Below, piece after piece: positions 1,889 through 18,486 of a DNA stretch of 32,961 nucleotides. Source of the DNA: Candidatus Faecisoma merdavium (lineage in GTDB: Bacteria; Bacillota_I; Bacilli_A; RF39; UBA660); the NCBI GenBank assembly GCA_018716405.1, contig DVJX01000096.1, positions 1-32,961 of the forward strand. The letters run 5' to 3'. A model generated the notes under the pieces. It was not told the DNA's origin. It did no database searches and saw only the letters and a list, made by a program, of their open reading frames with translations. Position numbers and translations under genes: made by a program. The number at the start of each line of letters is the position of its first letter. Positions within the stretch are counted from its first letter, which is position 1.

Positions 1889-2029
1889 ATATTTAATTAA
1901 TACTGAATAGACTATAGTTTATTCAGCTTTTTATATATATTAAATTGACATTAAAAATAAAAAAGAAATATTAAAACAAGTAAAAGTGGGATAATTAATT
2001 ACATATATAGAATTTTTAGAATTGTATAA
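1886..2029 (+). pseudogene. Decayed third copy of the palindrome + promoter + repeat-module gene found at 5264-7059 and 7092-9309
   Basis: Near-identical to 5247-5320 (ataaatatttaattaatactgaatagactatagtttattcag...ttgacattaaaaataaaaaa), then fused to KKEILKQVKVG*LITYIEFLELYK, a module fragment with a Q->stop change (caa->taa). Confidence 0.8.
1903..1926. repeat. 24-bp palindrome copy 1 (CTGAATAGACTATAGTTTATTCAG)
   Basis: Near-perfect inverted repeat, followed by a T-run. Also at 5264-5287 and 7092-7115. Confidence 0.85.
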
Positions 2030-2030
2030 A

Positions 2031-2062
2031 AAAAGGCAAATTCTCTCAGAGAATGCCTTTTA
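2031..2062 (-). terminator. Intrinsic terminator of the minus-strand AAA operon
   Basis: Imperfect hairpin aaaaggcaaattctctcagagaatgcctttt with a T-run on the minus strand, downstream of the stop at 2163. Confidence 0.6.
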
Positions 2063-2162: not shown

Positions 2163-3053
2163 CTATATTTTTCGAGTTTTTTCAAAACTAGGTAATTCAA
2201 AATCTTTTGTTTTATAACCGTCATTGATATAATCAAACATATTATTAGCATCTTCTATAATATCATTACCATAAATGTTCATTATTCTTGGTTCACATAT
2301 GACTATATCATTAGGCTCTAAATCAATAATTTTTCTTATCATATTTTCTCCACTAGGAACACCATACCTATCACACCAAGCAAAATTAATATCTGGTGTT
2401 GTTTCCATCAATTTAAAATATAATCTTCTAAACCAAGACGGATGACACATTGGAAAAAATAACTTTTGAATATTTATCCGTTCGTTTATATTTTTTAATT
2501 TGAAAACTGAATAATGAACTTGTTTACCCTCATCTAACAAAACAAAAAAATTTAAACTAACACTAAATCCAAGCTGTTCTAAAATTTCTACTAAACTTAA
2601 AGTAATTGCACCACGATTAAATATTTGATTAGAATTATCACGCCAATCATAAGCGGAATTATAATAAATATTAATTTGTTTTTTTTGCGATTTTTGTTTA
2701 TTTAACATTGATAAGGGGTTGCCCTCTAAATATGCTTTTACATCTGGAACATAGCCAACGTAAAAATTATATTGTTTATATTTCTTACTATTTAATTTTA
2801 TATATTTTTCTAATTTTAATTTTAAATCCAAAAATTTATCAAAATTTTCATGATTCCCATATTTAGCCATATTTTTTGCTTCAGCTAAATTTATTGTTTT
2901 ATACCAATTGTAATTGTTAGTATATTCACTTTTAGCTGTTTCACGAAAAGCATTACTTATTTTAGCATTTTCTAAATGCTCTAAATATTCAGTAATTGAA
3001 TCAAAATAATAATACATTACATTATAATTATTTTTTTTATAATATTTATACAT
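2163..3053 (-). CDS. Hypothetical protein, possibly DUF7192/CobT-like partner of the adjacent CobS-like ATPase
   Basis: 296-aa ORF starting about 10 bp after the AAA gene stop in the same orientation. Family assignment rests on gene context and vague resemblance only. Confidence 0.5.
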   Translation of the reverse strand: MYKYYKKNNYNVMYYYFDSITEYLEHLENAKISNAFRETAKSEYTNNYNWYKTINLAEAKNMAKYGNHENFDKFLDLKLKLEKYIKLNSKKYKQYNFYVGYVPDVKAYLEGNPLSMLNKQKSQKKQINIYYNSAYDWRDNSNQIFNRGAITLSLVEILEQLGFSVSLNFFVLLDEGKQVHYSVFKLKNINERINIQKLFFPMCHPSWFRRLYFKLMETTPDINFAWCDRYGVPSGENMIRKIIDLEPNDIVICEPRIMNIYGNDIIEDANNMFDYINDGYKTKDFELPSFEKTRKI

Positions 3054-3064
3054 AAATTACTCCG

Positions 3065-4879
3065 TTAAAAATGTAACTCATCATCATGTCGTTGAGGTTC
3101 TTTTATCAATCTTAAAGATTTAGTAACAGAATAGTATTTATTATTTTCATCAATATAATCCATATTTCCAATAATTGTATTTAAATCATCTTGATCTAAA
3201 TTTTTGATAACATTATTTCTTAAAATAGTTTCAACTGGAATACCATTAATTTCTTTTTTGTAAACTTTTCCGATTCCACGAGTTGAAATTATATGTGGTA
3301 TTTTAGATTTTTCAACACTATCTCTAAAAGACCACATAAATTCTAATACTTGACGGTTTGGATATAATGCCCTTTCTAGTTTTCTATCATAATCAAAGAA
3401 AATATTATCAAATCTGTCTAATGTTGCTCCATCTAAAGCAGTTCTACCTATATATTGTAAGTCAGCACCTTTACCCCAAGTATTAGCAGCAGCTATCATT
3501 CTAAAATTTGGATGTTTTTCAATGGTTTCATGTGGAAAAGCCATATATCCGTTTGCCAAAGCTGAATTTATAATAATTAAAGCAGATGGATCAGAATTGT
3601 CTATTTCATCTAAGAAGAAAATACCACCATATTTAAATGCCTTATAAAATTCTGTATCTCTATAGTTACCTCCAGCATCAATAAAACCAGTTAATTTAAA
3701 TTCATTAGATACATTATTTGTGTAATACATTTTTTGCCCAAATGCTTTTGCAATTTGAGCTATCACATGGTTTTTACCAGAACCTGCAGGGCCGATTAAC
3801 ATTACTGGTTCATCTAATTGAACTGATGATGCTATTTCTTCATATTTTTCATGAAATAATTCAATGTCAGTTCTTCCTATTTCAACATCATTTAATTTTA
3901 TAATATTAATTTTTGGAACAGCTTGACTAGTAACAATTTTATCAATTAAATCTCTGTATTTAGCATATATTTCTTTAATAACATTATTTGATATAGAAAA
4001 TTTTTCAACTTCTGCTTTTATTATTTCTAATAAGTGTTTTTGAACTTCTATCGAAATTGCACTATCTACATATTCTGACACTCTTTTTTTAGGCTCAAGT
4101 GAATCAAAATAATCATTAAATGATTTTTCAATTCTAGCTCTTACACTTGTATCTGTTATATTAGATAATATTTCATTTAAACAATTTAATAAATTTTTGG
4201 CACTCATAAGATCGTCAAATAAAGGTTTATTTTTTTGATTTTCTTGTTTGGAAAAAACATCTGCATTTTCATAGATTATTTCTTCTTTTTCTTCTTCTAA
4301 AAAGTTATGAAACTCTCCGTTTTTATAATAAGTATTATCTGGAAATTCATAAACTTTGCCACACAATTTTTGTATAATATCCTCTTTATTAGAAAAAATT
4401 ATTTCCCCAAATTGTTTAGTATATCCAAAATATAAATCACAGGTCGTTCCAATTTTTATTGCAGTTAGTTCTTTTGTTTTCATATCATATAAAACATAAT
4501 TACAATTTGCATTTAACATTTGCAAAATTTTATAAGCATCATTATCATAGTCTTTAATTAAAAATGGTAAAAGTTCATGATATGTATCATATTCAAAACC
4601 ATATGTGTTTTCGTACTTTTCTGCAACTTTCCAAAAATCCTCTGCATCAACAACGTATAATAATTTTTCATCGAATATATATGGAAATTTGTAATCATCA
4701 TCTAGATTAATCCAATTGGTTTGACCAAAAATTGCATCATCACTTGTTACAATTTTTTCCTTATAAGTATCATCATCCGAATCTTTTGTAAGCTCTACTG
4801 CTTTAATACCCAACAAATTTCTGATTTCTTTTGATGATAGTTCTTTTCCTACATATGCTACTAATATATCATTAAGCAA
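3065..4879 (-). CDS. CobS-like / MoxR-type AAA+ ATPase with long N-terminal extension
   Basis: GPAGSGKNHVIAQIAKAFG (Walker A), GGIFFLDEIDNSDPSALIIINSALANGYMAFP (Walker B), RMIAAANTWGKGAD sensor-like motif, ALDGATLDRFDNIFFDYD. Typical of phage/accessory CobS-like ATPases. Confidence 0.8.
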   Translation of the reverse strand: MLNDILVAYVGKELSSKEIRNLLGIKAVELTKDSDDDTYKEKIVTSDDAIFGQTNWINLDDDYKFPYIFDEKLLYVVDAEDFWKVAEKYENTYGFEYDTYHELLPFLIKDYDNDAYKILQMLNANCNYVLYDMKTKELTAIKIGTTCDLYFGYTKQFGEIIFSNKEDIIQKLCGKVYEFPDNTYYKNGEFHNFLEEEKEEIIYENADVFSKQENQKNKPLFDDLMSAKNLLNCLNEILSNITDTSVRARIEKSFNDYFDSLEPKKRVSEYVDSAISIEVQKHLLEIIKAEVEKFSISNNVIKEIYAKYRDLIDKIVTSQAVPKINIIKLNDVEIGRTDIELFHEKYEEIASSVQLDEPVMLIGPAGSGKNHVIAQIAKAFGQKMYYTNNVSNEFKLTGFIDAGGNYRDTEFYKAFKYGGIFFLDEIDNSDPSALIIINSALANGYMAFPHETIEKHPNFRMIAAANTWGKGADLQYIGRTALDGATLDRFDNIFFDYDRKLERALYPNRQVLEFMWSFRDSVEKSKIPHIISTRGIGKVYKKEINGIPVETILRNNVIKNLDQDDLNTIIGNMDYIDENNKYYSVTKSLRLIKEPQRHDDELHF

Positions 4880-4957
4880 AAAAATCCCCCCTTAAATACA
4901 TTTATAATTTTAACTTAATATTTATATAAATTTCTCTTTTTTTAAGATTCGTACGTT

Positions 4958-4963
4958 ATTATA
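4958..4963 (-). promoter_or_regulatory. Putative extended -10 (TGaTATAAT, minus strand) for the AAA operon
   Basis: Reverse complement of attatatca, upstream of the start at 4879. Confidence 0.35.
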
Positions 4964-5263
4964 TCACAAAATATCTAAAAATGTATAACAAATTTGATAT
5001 TTTTAATATTTTAAAAATTTTAATTAATTATTTTGATATTTCATAAAATTTTCTTATTAAATTACAAATTTTTTATGATTTGTGCTTATTAGTTAATTCG
5101 TTGGGAATATCAGTTTTTTATTAAATATAAAATAATTTTTGAAATATTGTGTTTATATGATACAACTGATACATTAATTTAGTGAAAATACTTACAAGTA
5201 ATGGTTGAACTTTAATATAAATATTAATAATTATGAAACAATAAAATAAATACTTAATTAAGA

Positions 5264-5287
5264 CTGAATAGACTATAGTTTATTCAG
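5264..5287. repeat. 24-bp palindrome copy 2
   Basis: CTGAATAGACTATAGTTTATTCAG, identical to copy 1. Confidence 0.9.
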
Positions 5288-5305
5288 TTTTTATGTATAT
5301 TAAAA

Positions 5306-5334
5306 TTGACATTAAAAATAAAAAAATATATAAT
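5306..5334 (+). promoter_or_regulatory. Consensus sigma-A promoter TTGACA-N17-TATAAT
   Basis: TTGACA 5306-5311, TATAAT 5329-5334, spacer 17. The same arrangement is present upstream of the second paralogue. Confidence 0.8.
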
Positions 5335-5370
5335 AAATTCATTATTTTTATAATGAATGTTGGTGAAATA

Positions 5371-7059
5371 ATGGATTGGATTACCAAAGAACAAGAAGAA
5401 ATCAAAAAAGAAATATTAAAACATGTAGAAGAAGGGCAATTAATAACATATATAGAATTTTTAGAATTATATAAACCATATAAGGAAAGAATTAGTGAGA
5501 TTGCCTTTGCCAATCTTTTAGGAATAAGTAATTTTAATTATCAAATTTTTCAGGGTCGAGGAACGAGAACGAAAATATTCAAAAAAATTTATTCAAAATT
5601 AACACAAGAAGAACAAGAAGAAATCAAAAAAGAAATATTAAAACATGTAGAAGAAGGACAATTAATAACATATATAGAATTTTTAACATTATATAAAACA
5701 TATGAGGAAAGAATAAGTGAAATTGATTTTGCTAACCTTTTAGGCATAAGCGAATTTAATTATCAAAAAATTCGATATCGAGGAACAAGAACAAAAATAT
5801 TCAAGAAAACTAATTCAAAATTAACAGAAGAACAAGAAGAAATCAAAAAAGAAATATTAAAAAATGTAAGAATAGGTCAATTAATAACATATATAGAATT
5901 TTTAGAATTATATAAACCATATGAGAAAAGAATAAGTGAAATTGATTTTGCCAAACTTTTGGGAATAAGTTATAACAACTTTCAAAGGTTTCGTTATCCA
6001 AGTACAAAAGTAAAAATATTTAAGAAAACTAATTTAAAATTAACAGAAGAAGAACAAGAGGAGATAAGACAAGAAATATTAAAACAAGTAAAAGAAGGAC
6101 AATTGATAAAATATTCAGAACTTTTAGAATTATATAAACCATATAAGGAAAGAATAAGTGAAATTGATTTTGCCAAACTTTTGGGAATAAATTATAGCAA
6201 TTATAAGAGTGTTCGAAATAGAGGAACAAAAGCAAAAATAAAAGATTATAAAAAAGAAATAAAGATTAATGGAATAAGATATTTGCTACAAGAGTCAAGA
6301 TATTATTCAAAACAAGAATTGGAAAATTTATCAAAAAAATATGAAATAGATTTATCTGAAATTTTGAAGAAATTTTTTAACCTGCAAAATAATAAAAATT
6401 TAAAAAATATAGAGGATTGTCTAGAAATTAAAGGACAATTATGGATAGGAAATATAAAATGTAGTAAAATCTTTGCAGAAAAATATGCGCAATTTATGAT
6501 AGAAACAGCAATGAAAATAGGAAATAATTATTGTAGAAAGTACAAATGTGAATCAGTAAAAGATGATGTTATAAGCAATTCTATAATATTTATAATTGAA
6601 AAACGTGGACATATAGAAAAAAATTGTATAACTGAAGAACAAATAAAAACGGCAATTTTTCATTCTATTAGTAGATATATAATGGATTCATTTTTATGGG
6701 AAAAGAGTAGAAAATGCAGTAAAATATATTCATATTTTGAAATAAACATTAATGGTGAAGAAATTAATCCATTTGATAAGGGAATTGTAGATGCATCGAT
6801 TAATGTTGAGAACGAAGTCATTGAAAATATGTCACAAGCTAAAGAAATAGATTTGAAAAATGATTTATTAGAAGATTCTTGTTTAAGATTATTAAAAAAA
6901 TATTTAGAAATTGGTTATGATGAAAACAAAGCAATTTTAGAAGTTAGTAAGATTGTAAAGATAGCTGTGAAACCATTGGTTAAAATATTGAAAAAATATA
7001 TGATTAAACAGCAATATGTTAAAGTAACGAGCAAAGGAAGCTATATTTTAAAATATTAA
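5371..7059 (+). CDS. Four-module repeat protein with sigma-region-2-like C-terminal domain
   Basis: Modules start at 5395, 5617, 5836 and 6058 (EEIKKEILK.V..GQLITYIEFLELYKPY..RISEIDFA.LLGIS..NYQ..R..GTR.KIFKK). The listed start (5293) lies upstream of the -35 box, so ATG 5371 (after ttggtgaa) or 5353 is preferred. Confidence 0.85.
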   Translation: MDWITKEQEEIKKEILKHVEEGQLITYIEFLELYKPYKERISEIAFANLLGISNFNYQIFQGRGTRTKIFKKIYSKLTQEEQEEIKKEILKHVEEGQLITYIEFLTLYKTYEERISEIDFANLLGISEFNYQKIRYRGTRTKIFKKTNSKLTEEQEEIKKEILKNVRIGQLITYIEFLELYKPYEKRISEIDFAKLLGISYNNFQRFRYPSTKVKIFKKTNLKLTEEEQEEIRQEILKQVKEGQLIKYSELLELYKPYKERISEIDFAKLLGINYSNYKSVRNRGTKAKIKDYKKEIKINGIRYLLQESRYYSKQELENLSKKYEIDLSEILKKFFNLQNNKNLKNIEDCLEIKGQLWIGNIKCSKIFAEKYAQFMIETAMKIGNNYCRKYKCESVKDDVISNSIIFIIEKRGHIEKNCITEEQIKTAIFHSISRYIMDSFLWEKSRKCSKIYSYFEININGEEINPFDKGIVDASINVENEVIENMSQAKEIDLKNDLLEDSCLRLLKKYLEIGYDENKAILEVSKIVKIAVKPLVKILKKYMIKQQYVKVTSKGSYILKY

Positions 7060-7091
7060 AATTAATGATGTAATTAAAAAGCTGTTAGAAA

Positions 7092-7115
7092 CTGAATAAA
7101 TTATAGTTTATTCAG
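7092..7115. repeat. 24-bp palindrome copy 3 (CTGAATAAATTATAGTTTATTCAG)
   Basis: Two substitutions relative to copies 1 and 2; symmetry retained. Confidence 0.85.
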
Positions 7116-7133
7116 TTTTCATATATATAAAAA

Positions 7134-7162
7134 TTGACATCAAAAATAAAAAAATATATAAT
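7134..7162 (+). promoter_or_regulatory. Consensus sigma-A promoter TTGACA-N17-TATAAT
   Basis: TTGACA 7134-7139, TATAAT 7157-7162, spacer 17. Confidence 0.8.
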
Positions 7163-7176
7163 AAATGCGTTTTTTA

Positions 7177-9309
7177 ATGAATGTTGGTGATGAAATGGAT
7201 TGGATTACTAAAGAACAAGAAGAAATCAAAAAAGAAGTATTAAAACAAGTAAAAGTAGGTCAATTAATAACATATATAGAGTTTTTAGAATTATATAAAC
7301 CTTATGGTAAAAGAATGAGTGAGATTGATTTTGCGAATATTTTAGGGATAAATTATAGAAATTATCAAAAGATGCGAACACAAGGAACAAGAACAAAAAT
7401 ATTCAAAAAAACTTATTCTAAATTAACAGAAGAAGAAAAAGATAAAATAAAACAAGAAATATTAGAGAAAGTAAAAGTAGGTCAACTAATAACATATATA
7501 GAGTTTTTAGAATTATATAAACCATATGATGGAAAAATGAGTGAGATTGATTTTGCTAATCTTTTAGGAATAAGCTATATAAGTTATCAAAAAATTCGAA
7601 ATCAAGGAACAAAAGCAAAAGTTTTTAATAAAATGTACTCACAGGTGATAGCTGAAAAAATCAAAAAAGAAGTGTTAAAGCAAGTAAAAGAAGGACAATT
7701 GATAACATATTCAGAGTTTTTAGAACTATATAAACCGTATGAGAAACAAATAAGTGAGATTGACTTTGCTCATCTTTTAGGGATAGGTAATATGAGTTAT
7801 TATAATATTAAAAATCAAGGAACAAGAGCTAAAATATTTAATAAAAATAATTCAGAATTAGCAGACAAAGAAAAAGAAGAAATAAAGCAGGAAATATTAA
7901 AGCAAGTAAAAGAAGGACAATTAATAACATATATAGAGTTTTTAGAATTATATAAACTATATAAGAAAAGAATAAGCGAGATTGACTTTGCTAATCTTTT
8001 AGGAATAAATAGTGTTAATTATCAACTTTTTCGAGCACAAGGAACAAGAACAAAGATATTCAAGAAAAATTATCCAAAATTAACCGAAGAAGAAAAAGAA
8101 AAAATAAAACAAGAGATATTAGAGAAAGTAAAAGTGGGACAATTAATAACATATACAGAATTTTTGGAATTATATAAACCATATGATGAAAAAATGAGTG
8201 AGATTGATTTTGCTCATCTTTTAGGAATAAGTTATAGTAGTTATAGAAATATGCAATATAAAGGATCAAAAACCAAAATATTTAAAAAAATCAATTCAAA
8301 ATTAACAGAAAAAGAAGAAGAAAAAATAGTAAAAGAAGTATTAAAACAAGTAAAAATAGGACAATCAATAACATATATAGAATTTTTAGAACTATATAAA
8401 CCTTATAAAGAAAAAATAAGTGAAATTGACTTTGCTCTTCTTTTAGGAATAACTTATCCTAATTACCAAAGTATTCGAAATCAAGGAACAAAAGCAATAA
8501 TAAAAGATTATAAAAAAGAAATTAAGATTAATAGAATAAAATATTTATTAAAAGAATCAAGATATTATGAAAAACAAGAATTGGAAAATTTATCAAAAAA
8601 ATATGAAATAGATTTATCTGAAATTTTGAAGGGACTTTTTAATTTGAAAAATAACAACAATTTAAGGATTTTGGAAAGTTGCTTAGAAATTAAAGGATAT
8701 CTATGGATAGGAAATATAAAATGTAGTAAAATTTTTGCTACAAAATATAAACAATATATGATTGAATCAACAAAAAAAATAAAAAAATATTATTGTACAA
8801 AATATAGAAATTTAACTATAAAGGATGATGTTATAAGTAATTCTATAATATTTATAATTGAAAAATGTGGAAGTATAGAAAAAAATTGTATAAATGATGA
8901 ACAAATAAAAACATTGATATTTTATTCAATTAGTGGATATATAATAAAGTCATGTTTATGGGAATATTGTAAAAAGAATAGAAAAAATAATTCATTACTT
9001 GGGGCAAATGATAGTGAAGAAGAAATAAATCTTTCTAATAGAGGTATTGATACATCGATTAATACTGAAAATGATGTAAATCTATCTCAAAATAAAAGAA
9101 TGGATTCGAACAATGATTTATTAGCAAATTCTTGTTTAAAATTATTAAAAAAATATTTAAAAACTGGCTATGATGAAAATAAGGCAATATCGGAAGTTAG
9201 TAAAATTGTAGATATAGATGTAAAAGAATTGCTAGAAATATTAAAAAAATATATGATTGAACAACAATATGTTAAAGTAACAAGCAAAGGAAGTTATATT
9301 TTAAAATGA
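7177..9309 (+). CDS. Six-module repeat protein with sigma-region-2-like C-terminal domain, paralogue of the upstream gene
   Basis: Modules start at 7219, 7441, 7654, 7876, 8098 and 8320 (213-222 bp period). C-terminal region is collinear with the first gene (KDYKKEIKIN.I.YLL.ESRYY...KGSYIL). Listed start 7165 lies at the expected TSS, so 7177 or 7195 is more likely. Confidence 0.85.
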   Translation: MNVGDEMDWITKEQEEIKKEVLKQVKVGQLITYIEFLELYKPYGKRMSEIDFANILGINYRNYQKMRTQGTRTKIFKKTYSKLTEEEKDKIKQEILEKVKVGQLITYIEFLELYKPYDGKMSEIDFANLLGISYISYQKIRNQGTKAKVFNKMYSQVIAEKIKKEVLKQVKEGQLITYSEFLELYKPYEKQISEIDFAHLLGIGNMSYYNIKNQGTRAKIFNKNNSELADKEKEEIKQEILKQVKEGQLITYIEFLELYKLYKKRISEIDFANLLGINSVNYQLFRAQGTRTKIFKKNYPKLTEEEKEKIKQEILEKVKVGQLITYTEFLELYKPYDEKMSEIDFAHLLGISYSSYRNMQYKGSKTKIFKKINSKLTEKEEEKIVKEVLKQVKIGQSITYIEFLELYKPYKEKISEIDFALLLGITYPNYQSIRNQGTKAIIKDYKKEIKINRIKYLLKESRYYEKQELENLSKKYEIDLSEILKGLFNLKNNNNLRILESCLEIKGYLWIGNIKCSKIFATKYKQYMIESTKKIKKYYCTKYRNLTIKDDVISNSIIFIIEKCGSIEKNCINDEQIKTLIFYSISGYIIKSCLWEYCKKNRKNNSLLGANDSEEEINLSNRGIDTSINTENDVNLSQNKRMDSNNDLLANSCLKLLKKYLKTGYDENKAISEVSKIVDIDVKELLEILKKYMIEQQYVKVTSKGSYILK

Positions 9310-9353
9310 TGATTGTTTATTTTTATAAAAATTTATGATATAATTAAAAAGAG

Positions 9354-10990
<1,637 letters not shown>

Positions 10991-11914: not shown

Positions 11915-12589
11915 ATGCATTATATAAAAAAATACATATGGGTAATTTTAGTAATTTTCGTTTTATTATTTTTGTTTATTGCAAATAGTTCAAACGAAGA
12001 AGTTGTATTAGAAGAACAATTAAAAGAAAAAGAAGTAGAAGAACCTATAATTCAAGAAGAAAATAAAAAAATAAAAGTTGATATTAAAGGAGCAGTGAAT
12101 AATCCAGGTGTTTATGAAGTTTTAGAAAATAGTCGCGTTAGTGATGCGATAAATATAAGTGGTGGCTTAACTAAAGATGCTGATACGAGTACTATTAATT
12201 TAAGTAAAATAATATTTGATGAGATGGTAATAATTATTTATACAAAAGATGAAATTGCAGAAATGTTAAAAGGTGATACATCCATTAAATATATTGAAAA
12301 AGAATGTATTTGTCCAAAACTAGAAAATGATGCTTGTATTGAAGACAAGATTGAAAATGTTCCTAATAATAATTTAAATAACGATTCTAGTTCTTCAAAT
12401 AATAAAGTATCATTAAATAAAGCTAGTTTAGATGAATTAATGACTCTTGATGGAATAGGAGAGAAAAAAGCTCAAGCAATTATTGATTATCGTAATAAAA
12501 ATGGATTTAAATCTATTGAAGAAATAATGGAAGTAGATGGAATAGGCAGTACAACTTATGAAAAAATTAAAGATAGACTTACTTTGTAA
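11915..12589 (+). CDS. comEA: Competence protein ComEA (SLBB + helix-hairpin-helix)
   Basis: [18 protein letters not shown]...[54 protein letters not shown]. Confidence 0.92.
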
Positions 12590-14543
12590 AATAATTTTAA
12601 TTGTTACCTGTTTTTATACTTTTTATATTACTAAAAATTTAATATACCATACTAATTATAAAGAAGGTGAAATAACTTTAATTGGTAAAATAATTAATAT
12701 AACTAAAAAAGAAAATAATGTTGATTTGATAATAAAAGCAAAGGAAAAAATAAAAGTAACTTATTATGGTAGTGTTAATTATCAATTAGGTGATTATGTT
12801 AAAATTAAAGGAACATTAACAAAACCTTATAATAGTACTATTTTTAATTTGTTTGATTATAGAAATTATTTATTAAGTGATAAAATATATTTTATTTTAA
12901 AAGCTGATAAAATTGATAAATATAAAGATAATGATAATATATTTTATAAAATAAAAAATAGTATATATGAAAAAATAGATAAATTAAAAAGCAAAAATTA
13001 TGTAAAAACATTTATATTAGGTGATAAACAAGATTTAAATGATGAAATACTAAATAGTTATCAACAAAATGGTGTAAGTCATTTACTTGCTATATCAGGT
13101 ATGCATATTTCTTTATTAGTTGTAATTTTATCTAAAATATTAAAAAAATTTAAATATAGTTATTTTATAATAAGTATATTTTTAATTTTTTATGCATTTT
13201 TAACCAATTTTACTCCTTCTGTTTTAAGAGCAGTATTGCTTTATATTTTTAATAAAATAGATAAAAAAAATTTAATTTTATTAATTGCTAGTTTGATGTT
13301 ATTTTACAACCCATATTATATTTATAATGTTGGATTTTTATTTAGTTTCATAATAAGTTTTTATTTGATTTATTTTGGCAATTTAACTAACAAATTTAAT
13401 AATTATTTCATTAAATTATTTATGACATCAACAATTTGCTTTATAGCAAGTATTCCTATTATGATTAATAATTTTTATTATATAAATATAACAAGCCCTT
13501 TAATTAATATTATGTTTGTTCCTTTTATTTCCTTGATTATTTTTCCTCTGTCATTAATAACTCTGGTATTTCCAATCTTAGATAATATATTATTCTTTTT
13601 ATTAAATATTATGGAATCATTAACTTTATTTTTTAATAATTTTAACATTAATTTAACAATGGCAAAGATGAATATATATATTTTTATAATTTATTATTTA
13701 ATTATTACATTAATATTTATTAAGCCAAAGTATTTTTATGCTTTAATTTTTATTTTGATTATCCATAATAATATAAAATATTTTAATAAAAATAGTTATT
13801 TAACAATTCTTGATGTTGGACAAGGTGATTCTATTTTGCTAGAAATTAAAGATAAAAATATTTTAATTGATACTGGAGGTAATATGTTTAGTGATTATAA
13901 TATAGCTAAAAATAAATTAATACCTTATTTTAAATCATTAGGTATAAAAAAAATAAATTACTTAATTTTAACACATGGTGATTATGATCATATGGGTGAA
14001 AGTATTAATTTAGTAAATAACTTTAAAGTAGAGAAAGTAATATTCAATTGTGGGCCACATAATGATTTAGAACAAGAATTAATTAAAGTATTACATAAAA
14101 AGAAAATACCATATTACAGTTGTATCAAAGAATTAAATATAGATGATAATAAATTATACTTTTTAAATAATAAAGATTATGGTAATGAAAATGATAATTC
14201 AAGTGTAATTTATACAGAACTCAATAAACATAAATTTCTATTTATGGGAGATGCTGGTGTAGAAGTAGAAGATGATTTAATAGAAAAATATAATTTACAA
14301 AATATAGATGTATTAAAAGTAGGACATCATGGAAGTAAAACAAGTTCAAGTGAAGAATTCATAGGTGAGATAAATCCAAAATATTCAGTAATTAGTGTTG
14401 GAAAGAACAATAGATATGGTCATCCAAATGATAGTGTATTAGAAAATTTAGAAGATAGTAAAATTTATAGAACAGATGAAGATGGAAGTATTATGTTTAA
14501 AATTGATAATGATAAATTAAAAATTAAAACATGTGCACCATAG
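12558..14543 (+). CDS. comEC: ComEC/Rec2 DNA uptake channel with MBL-fold C-terminal domain
   Basis: [20 protein letters not shown] competence domain; [24 protein letters not shown] and [16 protein letters not shown] motifs. Overlaps comEA by 32 bp. Confidence 0.93.
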
Positions 14544-14559
14544 AAAGGAGAACAAAAAA

Positions 14560-15390
14560 ATGAATGAAATAAAAGAATATACAGAAAAATTATTTGAAAA
14601 TATAAAACATATAGATGAAAATGGCAATGAGTATTGGTTGGCTAGAGAATTAATGCCATTACTTGAGTACAACAAATGGGAGAGATTTTCTAATGCAATA
14701 GAATATGCAAAAACATCTTGTATAAAAAGTGGTTATAATGTTAGTGACCATTTTCCCGAGGTTGGGAAATTGGTTCAAATAGGTTCAAAAACAAACAGAA
14801 AATTGAAAGATTATAAACTATCAAGATATGCATGTTATTTAATAGTACAAAATGGTGATTCAAGAAAAGAAGCAATAGCTTTAGGTCAAACTTATTTTGC
14901 GATTCAAACTAGAAAACAAGAGTTAAATGAAAAAGAATATAGTAAGCTTACTGAAGATGAGAAAAGATTTTATCAAAGAGATTTAACTAGAAAAGGAAAT
15001 TATTCTTTGAATATTGCTGCTAGAAATGCTGGAGTAAAGAACTTCGATAAATTTCATAATTCAGGTTATAAAGGATTATACAATGGAGAAACAGCAAATG
15101 ATATTGCAAGAAGAAAGAAACTTAGATATAGAGAAGATATTTTGGATAACATGGGCAGTGATGAATTAATTGCAAATTTATTTAGAATCTCTCAAACAGA
15201 ACAAAAATTAAAGAATGAAAATATAAATTTAGAAAGTAAAGCAAATGAAACTCATTTTGAAGTTGGAAAGGAAATCAGAAATACAATTAAGAAACTTGGT
15301 GGAACAATGCCGGAAGATTTGCCAACTCCAGATAAAAGTTTGAAAGAGTTGGAAAAAGAGAACAAAACATTAAATGTAAAAAATGTATGA
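14560..15390 (+). CDS. dinD: DinD-like (DNA-damage-inducible protein D) protein, copy 1
   Basis: MNEIKEYTEKLFENIKHIDENGNEYWLARELMPLLEYNKWERF..., YKLSRYACYLIVQNGDSRKEAIALGQTYFAIQTRKQEL. RBS aaaggag directly after the comEC stop. Confidence 0.85.
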   Translation: MNEIKEYTEKLFENIKHIDENGNEYWLARELMPLLEYNKWERFSNAIEYAKTSCIKSGYNVSDHFPEVGKLVQIGSKTNRKLKDYKLSRYACYLIVQNGDSRKEAIALGQTYFAIQTRKQELNEKEYSKLTEDEKRFYQRDLTRKGNYSLNIAARNAGVKNFDKFHNSGYKGLYNGETANDIARRKKLRYREDILDNMGSDELIANLFRISQTEQKLKNENINLESKANETHFEVGKEIRNTIKKLGGTMPEDLPTPDKSLKELEKENKTLNVKNV

Positions 15391-15419
15391 TATAATGTAT
15401 ATATAGGATGTGATAAATT

Positions 15420-16079
15420 ATGTTAATAGTTGAAGTTGGGTTTAAATTAGATAAGACTTTAGAATACTATGATAAAATTTTAAAAATGCATGGATTAGAA
15501 AATGATTTTAATTGTGAAACACATGATATATATTATACAAAAGATAATTTAAATGAATTAACAGAAAATGAAATGAAACAAAAGTGTATTCGCTTAAGAA
15601 ATGTAAATTTTAAAGAAGGATATAAAGTAGAAAATAAATTGTTAGATTCATTGAATATTGATTTTGTTAATGAAAATGAACTTCTTGATTTTGAAAACAA
15701 ATTAAAAGAAAATGGATATTTAAAAGTTTTCGATACTAAAAAGAAAGATCATCATTATTACAAAGAAGGAATGAACACTAAAGTACAATTACAGGAAATT
15801 GACGATATAGGGTTACTTGTATATTTAGATAATTCAAACTATTATGAATTACCTTTAGAGGAACAAAGAAATAAATTAATTGATGAATTAAATAGTTATG
15901 GATTTGATTTTAAATATACGGATTTAGGATTAGATAAACTTAGGACATTATATTATCAAGAAAAAAATATAGTAAAAATCAAAATGGTTAAAGCAGAACT
16001 ACATAAATGTAGTTTTTTCTTTGGAAATAAAGTGTTTTACTCGACTTACTTTTTGACAATCAGCACATGGAGATTATAA
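15420..16079 (+). CDS. CYTH-domain-like protein (3' end probably disrupted)
   Basis: EVGFKLDKTLEYYDKIL..., CIRLRN, KVENK and KVQLQEIDDIG pattern. The last ~30 codons run through a terminator hairpin and into comEC-derived sequence. Confidence 0.55.
   Translation: MLIVEVGFKLDKTLEYYDKILKMHGLENDFNCETHDIYYTKDNLNELTENEMKQKCIRLRNVNFKEGYKVENKLLDSLNIDFVNENELLDFENKLKENGYLKVFDTKKKDHHYYKEGMNTKVQLQEIDDIGLLVYLDNSNYYELPLEEQRNKLIDELNSYGFDFKYTDLGLDKLRTLYYQEKNIVKIKMVKAELHKCSFFFGNKVFYSTYFLTISTWRL
15998..16017 (+). terminator. Intrinsic terminator of cassette 1
   Basis: actacat-aa-atgtagt followed by a T-run. Confidence 0.7.
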
Positions 16080-16080
16080 T
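16053..16080 (+). promoter_or_regulatory. Promoter at comEC-copy-2 junction: TTGACA-N16-TATAAT
   Basis: -35 TTGACA 16053-16058 lies in the conserved junction; -10 TATAAT 16075-16080 lies in the codons for HGDYN. Confidence 0.6.
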
Positions 16081-16635
16081 CATATAGGAAATGCAAAATA
16101 CATAGTAGAAAATTTCAAAGTAGAGAAAGTAATATTTAATTGTGGTGAATTTAATGAACTAGAGACTGATTTAATTAAAGTATTGGGTGAAAAGAAAATA
16201 CCATATTATTCGTGTATTAAAGAATTAAATATAGATAATAACAAATTATATTTTTTACAAACTAAAGAATATGATAATGAAAACGATAATTCAAATGTTA
16301 TTTATACTGAACTTAGTGGTTATAATTTTATGTTTATGGGTGATGCATCAAGTACAACTGAAAAAGAAATAATAGATAAATACAATCTTCCTGACATTGA
16401 TGTATTAAAAGTAGGACATCATGGAAGTAGGACAAGTTCAAGTATTGAATTTATAAATGAGATAAATCCAGAGTATTCCATTATTAGTGTAGGTAAGAAT
16501 AATAGGTATGGACATCCAAATAAAGAAGTGTTAGATGCATTAGAGGAATCAAAAATATATAGAACAGATCAAAATGGTAGTATCATGTTTAAAATCAATA
16601 ATAATAAATTAAAAATTGAGACTTGTAGTCCATAG
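16061..16635 (+). pseudogene. Second, diverged copy of the comEC 3' (MBL) end, starting at the HGDYNH motif
   Basis: [28 protein letters not shown]...[15 protein letters not shown]...[13 protein letters not shown]...KLKIETCSP aligns to the ComEC C-terminus. Open to the end, but no in-frame ATG before 16183. Confidence 0.85.
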
Positions 16636-16651
16636 AAAGGAAGATGATAAA

Positions 16652-17485
16652 ATGAATGAAATAAAAGAATATACTGAAAAGGTATTTGAAGATATTAAAC
16701 ATATTGATGAGATTGGTAATGAATACTGGTATGCAAGAGAATTGATGTCAGTACTTGGATATAGTAAATGGGAAAATTTTAATAAAGTAATAGAAAAGGC
16801 AATTGTCGCTTGTCAAAACAGTAGTATTAATTATAAAGAACATTTTCCTGATGTCAGGAAAACGTTAGAAATGCCTAATAATGCGATGAAAAAAATAATT
16901 GATTATAAACTTTCAAGATATGCTTGTTACCTAATTGCACAAAATGGTGATTCTAGAAAAGAAGTAATAGCACTAGCTCAGACTTACTTTGCTATACAAA
17001 CAAGGAAACAAGAATTAAGTGAAAAAGAGTATAACGAACTATCTGAAGATGAGAAAAGATTATATAGAAGGAATCAAGCAAGAAAAGGTAATTTTAATTT
17101 AAATAAAACAGCTGTTAATAGTGGAGTAAAAGATTTAGCTAGATTTCATAATGCGGGATATAAAGGATTATATAATGGTGAAACTGCTGATGATATATTT
17201 AAAAGGAAAAAATTAAGATATAGAGAAGATATATTAGATAATATGGGTAGTGAAGAACTTGCAGATAATATATTTAGAATAGCTCAAACAGACGCTAAAT
17301 TAAAAAGAGATAACGTAGATAATGAATATACTGCAAATTCTGTTCATTATGAAGTAGGTAAGGAAGTAAGAAATAGCATTAAAAGATTAGGTGGTACTAT
17401 GCCAGAAGATTTATTAACACCTGAGAAAAGTTTAAAAGAATTAGAAAAAGATAGCAGAAATCAATTAACTAACAATAAGTTGTGA
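16652..17485 (+). CDS. dinD: DinD-like protein, copy 2
   Basis: MNEIKEYTEKVFEDIKHIDEIGNEYWYARELMSVLGYSKWENF..., collinear with copy 1 along its full length. Listed start 16616 lies inside the comEC fragment. Confidence 0.85.
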   Translation: MNEIKEYTEKVFEDIKHIDEIGNEYWYARELMSVLGYSKWENFNKVIEKAIVACQNSSINYKEHFPDVRKTLEMPNNAMKKIIDYKLSRYACYLIAQNGDSRKEVIALAQTYFAIQTRKQELSEKEYNELSEDEKRLYRRNQARKGNFNLNKTAVNSGVKDLARFHNAGYKGLYNGETADDIFKRKKLRYREDILDNMGSEELADNIFRIAQTDAKLKRDNVDNEYTANSVHYEVGKEVRNSIKRLGGTMPEDLLTPEKSLKELEKDSRNQLTNNKL

Positions 17486-17511
17486 TATAATATTTATAGG
17501 AGATGAATACT

Positions 17512-17853
17512 ATGAATATTGAAGTTAATAAAGTTAAAATTTTTGTTACGGTACCTACAGAAAATACTCAAGAAGTAAGAAATGCTGTTTGTAATGCTGG
17601 TGCAGGAATAATTGGTGAATATAGTTATTGTTCTACTTGTGTTAAGTCATTAGGAACATTTATACCAAATGATAACGCTAAACCTTATATTGGTGAAAAT
17701 AATAAATTAGAATATGTTGAAGAAGATAAACTAGAAGTTATATGTGATATACAAAAGGCAAAACATGTAATCGCTGAACTTAGAAAAGTTCATCCATATG
17801 AAGAACCAGCAATAGATATTGTTCCATTAATTGATGAAAATAGTTTAATTTAA
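17512..17853 (+). CDS. NIF3/YqfO-type (CutA-like) domain protein
   Basis: KVKIFVTVPTENTQEVRNAVCNAGAGIIGEYSYCSTCVKSLGTFIPNDNAKPYIG...VEEDKLEVIC...VIAELRKVHPYEEPAIDIVPL. ATG 17512 follows tagggag-like RBS (aggag). Confidence 0.85.
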   Translation: MNIEVNKVKIFVTVPTENTQEVRNAVCNAGAGIIGEYSYCSTCVKSLGTFIPNDNAKPYIGENNKLEYVEEDKLEVICDIQKAKHVIAELRKVHPYEEPAIDIVPLIDENSLI

Positions 17854-17854
17854 T

Positions 17855-17885
17855 AAGAATTATCAATTATGATAGTTCTTTTTTT
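17855..17885 (+). terminator. Intrinsic terminator of cassette 2
   Basis: aagaattatc-aattat-gatagttctt followed by T-run. Confidence 0.7.
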
Positions 17886-17906
17886 GTTTTAAATTCGACT
17901 TACTTT

Positions 17907-17934
17907 TTGACAATTACCACATGGTGATTATGAT
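17907..17934 (+). promoter_or_regulatory. Promoter at comEC-copy-3 junction: TTGACA-N16-TATGAT
   Basis: TTGACA 17907-17912, TATGAT 17929-17934. Same layout as at 16053-16080. Confidence 0.55.
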
Positions 17935-18486
17935 CACATGGGAGAAAGTATTAATTTAATTAATAATTTTAAAGTAGATAATGTTATATTTAATCATGAT
18001 GGTTATAATGAATTAGTATTAGATTTAATCAAAGTATTAGATGATAAAAATATAAAATATTATAAAGGATTAAAACAACTAAATATAAATAACAATGTAA
18101 TATATTTTTTAAACAAAGAATTATATGATAATGAAAACGATAATTCAAGTGTGATTTATACTGAAATAAATGGAACAAAAATATTACTAATGGGTGATGC
18201 AGGTGTTAATGTTGAAAAAGAGATATTAAACAAATACAATTTAAGTAATATAGATGTATTAAAAGTTGGTCATCATGGTAGTAAAACAAGTAGTAGTGAA
18301 AGTTTCATTAGTAAAATTAATCCAATATATTCCATTATATCAGTTGGTAAAAATAATTGGTATGGTCATCCAAATGAAGAAGTTTTAGAAATATTGAAAG
18401 ATACTGATGTTTATAGAACTGACATAAATGGAAGCATCAAATTTAAAATTAAAAATAAATTAGAAATTAAAACATGCGTATCATAG
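17914..18486 (+). pseudogene. Third, diverged copy of the comEC 3' (MBL) end
   Basis: [30 protein letters not shown]...[13 protein letters not shown]...KLEIKTCVS. Confidence 0.85.

Follow-up and report, generated by a model that had tools for sequence, protein, structure and literature searches.

The nearest published relatives of the proteins described here are TALE-like and pTERF repeat proteins. In a screen of tandem-repeat proteins, pTERF proteins from gut MAGs of Clostridia/Bacillota were found to bind DNA sequence-specifically (PMC11417379). pTERF1 binds ACTNNNAGTC with a Kd of 1.87 nM, and the members, which carry 3-11 units, differ from each other in their specificities (PMC11417379). 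Neither sigma nor helix-turn-helix (HTH) is mentioned in the main text of that study (PMC11417379).

The window, i.e. the whole stretch of 32,961 nt that was analysed, is contig C67 of a low-GC, 1.31-Mb assembly. It comes from an uncultured, gut-type Bacillota bacterium and carries two adjacent genes for paralogous proteins, A and B, which appear to represent a family of modular gene-switch proteins that has not been described before. An earlier note, made from the letters alone, had not recognised their architecture as a named family, and the open-access literature likewise gave no description of this architecture, here called class 1 (the C-terminus of A and B with ~74-aa modules); papers under subscription were outside the scope of the search. 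The same C-terminus with ~31-aa repeats is called class 2. The locus comprises the following features:

1956 to 2051, plus strand: decayed remnant of a third copy, leader joined to a module fragment, with one in-frame TAA (E 3.7e-7, 75% identity)
5306 to 5334, plus strand: promoter of gene A, consensus sigma-A-type, TTGACA - 17 - TATAAT (12/12 hexamer bases)
5371 to 7059, plus strand: protein A, four HTH modules and the sigma-like C-terminus (intact ORF, 562 aa)
5385 to 6244, plus strand: array of A, four modules starting at 5385, 5607, 5826 and 6048 (repeat spacing, AlphaFold2 model mace0f52b3c9d)
6247 to 7056, plus strand: C-terminal effector part of A, 270 aa, with a small helical domain, a region-2-like part and a C-terminal HTH-like part (AlphaFold2 model m7458be52029d, profile and fold comparisons)
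6463 to 6720, plus strand: sigma region-2-like helices of A, residues ~365-450 (AlphaFold2, profile comparison)
6802 to 7056, plus strand: region-4-like or HTH-like C-terminal part of A, residues ~478-562 (profile comparison)
7134 to 7162, plus strand: promoter of gene B, perfect consensus sigma-A-type, TTGACA - 17 - TATAAT (hexamer match)
7195 to 9309, plus strand: protein B, six HTH modules and the sigma-like C-terminus (intact ORF, 704 aa)
7209 to 8506, plus strand: array of B, six modules starting at 7209, 7431, 7644, 7866, 8088 and 8310 (repeat spacing)
8509 to 9306, plus strand: C-terminal effector part of B, counterpart of that of A (sequence comparison)

On one side the genes are bordered by smc (end at 1888) and two genes of the minus strand, on the other by pyrG (9386). 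They sit alone, with no partner in the neighbourhood betraying a function, and an Rfam scan of 4800-9500 gave no match. The starts at 5371 and 7195 are preferred because the mechanically called ORF starts, 5293 and 7165, fall either before the -10 element or directly at it. Exact promoter matches occur three times in the window, compared to 0.15 expected, and the TTGACA-17-TATAAT form also precedes the homologues in the genomes G001, G013 and G158. The leader is duplicated, the 104 nt at 5244-5347 being repeated at 7072-7175 (83%); no further occurrence of its motif was seen in the genome, so that no regulon emerges from it.

Several other features of the window and genome were observed. On the minus strand, 2163-4879 holds a pair of genes, one for a DUF7192 protein and the other for an AAA_5 ATPase that matches DUF3700 weakly. 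The 3' part of comEC, coding for the metallo-beta-lactamase end, is present in triplicate within 12558-18486 (end of 12558-14543, 16183-16635 and 17938-18486), and between the copies lie Bro-N genes at 14533-15390 and 16616-17485, the first of which matches PADLOC PDC-S13; the region appears as if a cassette had been inserted repeatedly and the gene end restored. Elsewhere, the second RpoD-like sigma factor of the genome (L060, G000:C2, region-2 match 12846-13052) has 761 aa, with a long extra part after region 4.

The four and six tandem units of ~74 aa that the earlier note had read in A and B were confirmed, with spacings of 74/73/74 aa and 74/71/74/74/74 aa, respectively. Chance can be ruled out as the origin of ten copies of a ~222-nt unit that stay in register. 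At the DNA level these share 65-82% identity with a reference copy (300 nt), and 23 columns are invariant across the ten modules. For each of them AlphaFold2, with a 19-row alignment built from the window proteins and retrieved ones, predicts a helix, a strand, three helices and a strand, with an HTH (mean pLDDT 80.9); the relative orientation of the modules is uncertain (pTM 0.42). The segments 'SEIDFAnLLGIS' and 'xxNYQxxRxx', proposed in the note to form an HTH, are placed in consecutive short helices in every module, in agreement with that proposal. On the homologous modules of L042 and L044, Pfam matched HTH_3, HTH_26 and Sigma70_r4_2, with scores summed over the repeats. Further Pfam and NCBIfam matches such as Peptidase_S48/HetR, villin headpiece, CPL3 and MCM4 were scattered, repeat-summed and mutually inconsistent and were rejected, as was calmodulin as a fold relative of the whole model, a tandem-helix lookalike of low probability. 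A PDB sequence search with the modules, the C-terminus and one class 2 protein returned nothing significant.

To locate variation within the module, column statistics were compiled from 58 modules of nine proteins (62 positions, two shifted duplicates removed). The five most variable of the 62 columns, +28, +32, +31, +36 and +35 from the conserved Tyr, all fall in the second, i.e. the recognition helix of the predicted HTH. As these columns were first picked by their variability, which is partly circular, a held-out test was added: columns chosen in one half of the proteins were also more variable in the other (p 1e-4 and 0.013), with +28, +31 and +32 common to both. In 9/9 proteins pN/pS was higher at the five columns (0.62-1.39) than elsewhere (0.28-0.66); values near 1 could also arise if constraint were relaxed. 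A test for helical periodicity among the variable columns gave only a marginal result (p 0.048). That the modules bind DNA is an inference from the predicted fold, supported only indirectly by the variability of the second helix, and we consider it very probable. No DNA target was found.

The non-repeated C-terminus, which the earlier note had described as common to both proteins, is 71% identical between A and B. The note had also likened it to a sigma factor, and this is supported, though not overwhelmingly, by profile comparison; sigma factors also head the fold matches, none of which is individually significant. A profile of 30 C-termini of both classes was compared with one of 29 canonical sigma factors from eight genomes. 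The hhalign score was 38.6 (P 8.4e-5, Prob only 60%), with region 2 and region 4 aligned in colinear order, while a reversed alignment reached 15.5 and 60 column shuffles at most 17.7. Taken separately, the region-2-like part scored 24.4 (shuffles ≤ 15.6) and the region-4-like part 26.3 (shuffles ≤ 14.0); the domain preceding them served as an internal negative control and stayed within its shuffles (17.8, shuffles ≤ 18.0). The class 2 C-terminus alone did not reach the sigma profile.

With the AlphaFold2 model of the C-terminus of A (mean pLDDT 79.5), a Foldseek search of the PDB placed the ECF sigma factor sigma-H on ranks 1-3 (E 0.12-0.19, prob 0.60-0.75), and RpoE, SigA, SigB, SigE and SigG1 were among the other matches. 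Sigma chains made up 19/50 of the top list, many of them one protein in different entries. The whole model matched two phage sigma factors among viral structures (prob 0.93-0.96). None of the fold searches, with the C-terminus, with the whole model or against viral structures, reached E < 0.001. Pfam and NCBIfam gave no sigma match on the C-termini, including none to Sigma70_r2; the Sigma70_r4_2 match in L044 falls on an array module. The last ~60 aa of A and B weakly match the C-terminal domain of RsmI (best E about 1e-6), a generic HTH-like fold, hence the region-4 assignment is that of a generic HTH at best. Few residues of the C-terminus are invariant, and an SLDE/SLDQ linker motif is kept in several Clostridia members. 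We regard descent of the C-terminus from a sigma factor, as a very divergent sigma-70-like domain, as probable. The canonical residues for promoter melting and -10 reading have not been shown to be kept, and binding of RNA polymerase is inferred.

In class 2 proteins the N-terminus consists of ~29-33-aa repeats in up to about 22 copies, e.g. LLELVKTCPSILAxGKAQEIEKILTLLESKG, in which x marks the position of highest variability (normalised within-protein entropy 0.61, against 0.47 for the next). The class 2 proteins form a sister clade; homology between the C-termini of the classes is clear (hhalign 99.4%, E 7.8e-22), and in the tree a single, well supported change of array type suffices (98/96). 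The Bacilli family and Clostridia (L090) each contain both classes. Class 2 loci include L093, L100 and L026, and in the genome G155 two such genes are direct neighbours, flanked by ftsY and an rnjA-like gene.

A survey of module copy number among homologues, which the earlier note had proposed, gave 4 to 12 modules. Matches were found in 3/17 other genomes of the genus; one of these (G006) is cut off by a contig end and the other two have six modules. The homologue in G001 lies between smc and pyrG, as in the window. A genome of another genus of the same family (G158) has six modules as well, and profile searches with the C-terminus detected further members within this Bacilli family and in Clostridia MAGs (L042, L044 and L045 with 6, 12 and 4 modules, respectively). 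The family of L044 has matches in 22/145 genomes. A long homologue with at least eight modules (L046, 2620-5527) shows a frame change between array and C-terminus, which could be decay or an assembly error; the longest intact frames among homologues reach 1138 aa. A Tenericutes MAG member (L048) is more divergent. The modules also occur in other architectures, namely as an array without the region-2-like part (L047, 5965-6921) and on a different C-terminus (L049, 5920-8580). Class- and phylum-wide matches to ~280-aa proteins were not accepted as relatives; the four inspected (L103-L106) are RsmI, cross-matching over the last ~60 aa only. No relatives were detected in viral contigs, phages or plasmids with the queries used.

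When the window genome is compared with G001, identity amounts to 86-91% for smc, pyrG and def, but to 55-59% for the modules and 50-52% for the C-termini. The strings of recognition residues differ between the two genomes and are not conserved, and the orthology of A or B to the single G001 gene is uncertain. As judged from the sequences, the family is patchy, chromosomal and fast-evolving, with homologues in one Bacilli family and in Clostridia. The rapid divergence, the unconserved recognition strings, the patchiness, the duplication and the decay suggest quickly changing targets.

In the mechanism that we propose, the N-terminal array would read DNA, each ~74-aa module being a small HTH on one common scaffold. 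As the residues of the recognition helix vary from module to module, both how long the target is and which sequence it has would depend on how many modules there are and in what order, and targets could change through gain, loss and mutation of modules. The divergent sigma-70-like domain, with region-2-like helices, an SLDE-type linker in several Clostridia members and a C-terminal HTH, would engage RNA polymerase, so that transcription would be started or redirected at sites chosen by the array. A and B would thus be paralogous, self-contained and re-targetable regulators of transcription, a reading to which we assign a probability of about 0.5. The repeats, the conservation pattern, the common C-terminus with its sigma similarity and the variation in copy number are direct observations; the HTH fold is a prediction, and DNA binding, RNA polymerase binding, the sign of regulation (activation or repression) and the targets are inferred. 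Equally inferred, and in our judgement an even bet, is that the protein acts as an array-guided initiation factor or activator. More tentatively, with the odds somewhat against it, the family may represent naturally re-targetable sigma factors, in which an expandable array brings RNA polymerase to promoters and two unrelated array types serve one sigma-like core.

The sigma-descended C-terminus may instead no longer initiate, in which case A and B would be modular DNA-binding regulators acting as repressor, roadblock or decoy, or merely holding RNA polymerase. The weak profile probability of the divergent region-2-like part, the failure of the class 2 C-terminus alone to reach the sigma profile and the scarcity of invariant residues are in agreement with such a loss, but the order from region 2 to region 4 is retained in the joint profile of both classes, as is the SLDE/SLDQ linker motif in several Clostridia members, and we consider a non-initiating C-terminus unlikely. 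A role in genome defence or control of mobile elements, in which the arrays evolve to read DNA that is invading or parasitic and its transcription is set off or blocked by the C-terminus, would fit the fast evolution of arrays and C-terminus (50-59% vs 86-91% for smc, pyrG and def between two species), the presence in only 3/17 genus relatives and the local duplication and decay. However, PADLOC gives no coherent or convincing anti-phage family for A or B, the searched phage and plasmid records contain no match, no recognisable defence neighbours lie beside the inspected arrays, and the promoters appear strong and constitutive; such a role seems improbable to us.

mTERF proteins bind nucleic acids in organelles, which favours the possibility that RNA-binding repeat proteins of the PPR or mTERF kind act here on transcripts and not on promoters. 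The ~31-aa repeats of class 2 with their one variable residue recall this logic, while the class 1 modules are HTH-like, as is typical of DNA binding, and those mTERF-like repeats of prokaryotes that have been tested bind DNA (PMC11417379); we give RNA binding little credence. Least credible is a repeat expansion without function, in which selection is relaxed and an HTH gene has become over-amplified. It could account for the decayed copy in the window and the broken frame of L046, but is hard to reconcile with pN/pS values of 0.3-0.7 away from the variable positions, with unbroken frames of up to 1138 aa, with perfect promoters at a number of different sites and with retention of the family in two lineages.

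If the preferred reading of A and B as array-guided regulators is correct, bacteria possess modular DNA-address proteins of their own that can be expanded and are coupled to a sigma-like domain, which would be a new route for the evolution of promoter choice. The arrays would join TALEs and zinc fingers as a new kind of scaffold on which the reading of DNA by repeat arrays can be studied, and two array types on one core would permit a direct comparison of reading modes.

The C-terminus compares best with the sigma-70 family (ECF-like, sigma2-sigma4), which it resembles in the order of the region-2-like and C-terminal HTH-like parts, in the SLDE-type linker of several Clostridia members and, without individual significance, in the top PDB fold matches. 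It differs in being very divergent; A and B add a small helical domain and an array (4-12 modules in the family), and no anti-sigma neighbour was seen. RsmI is a methyltransferase, and its weak likeness is limited to the small C-terminal domain matching the last ~60 aa of A and B. The pTERF proteins are likewise tandem-repeat DNA-binding proteins from MAGs of gut Bacillota/Clostridia, and they may correspond to the class 2 array; their unit is a three-helix, mTERF-like one, in contrast to the four-helix HTH module with strands of the window proteins. With TALE-like proteins (TALE, RipTAL, BurrH, MOrTL, STAR; PMC4066763, PMC11417379) the family shares near-identical tandem units with few hypervariable positions and a part acting on transcription, and class 2 in particular has one hypervariable residue per ~31-aa repeat. 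Pfam gave no TALE family match in the scanned proteins of either class. The TALE repeat has 33-35 aa and two helices, with the variable pair at positions 12/13, whereas the window modules have 71-74 aa, four helices and two strands, and class 1 is chromosomal in gut bacteria and has a sigma-like partner domain.
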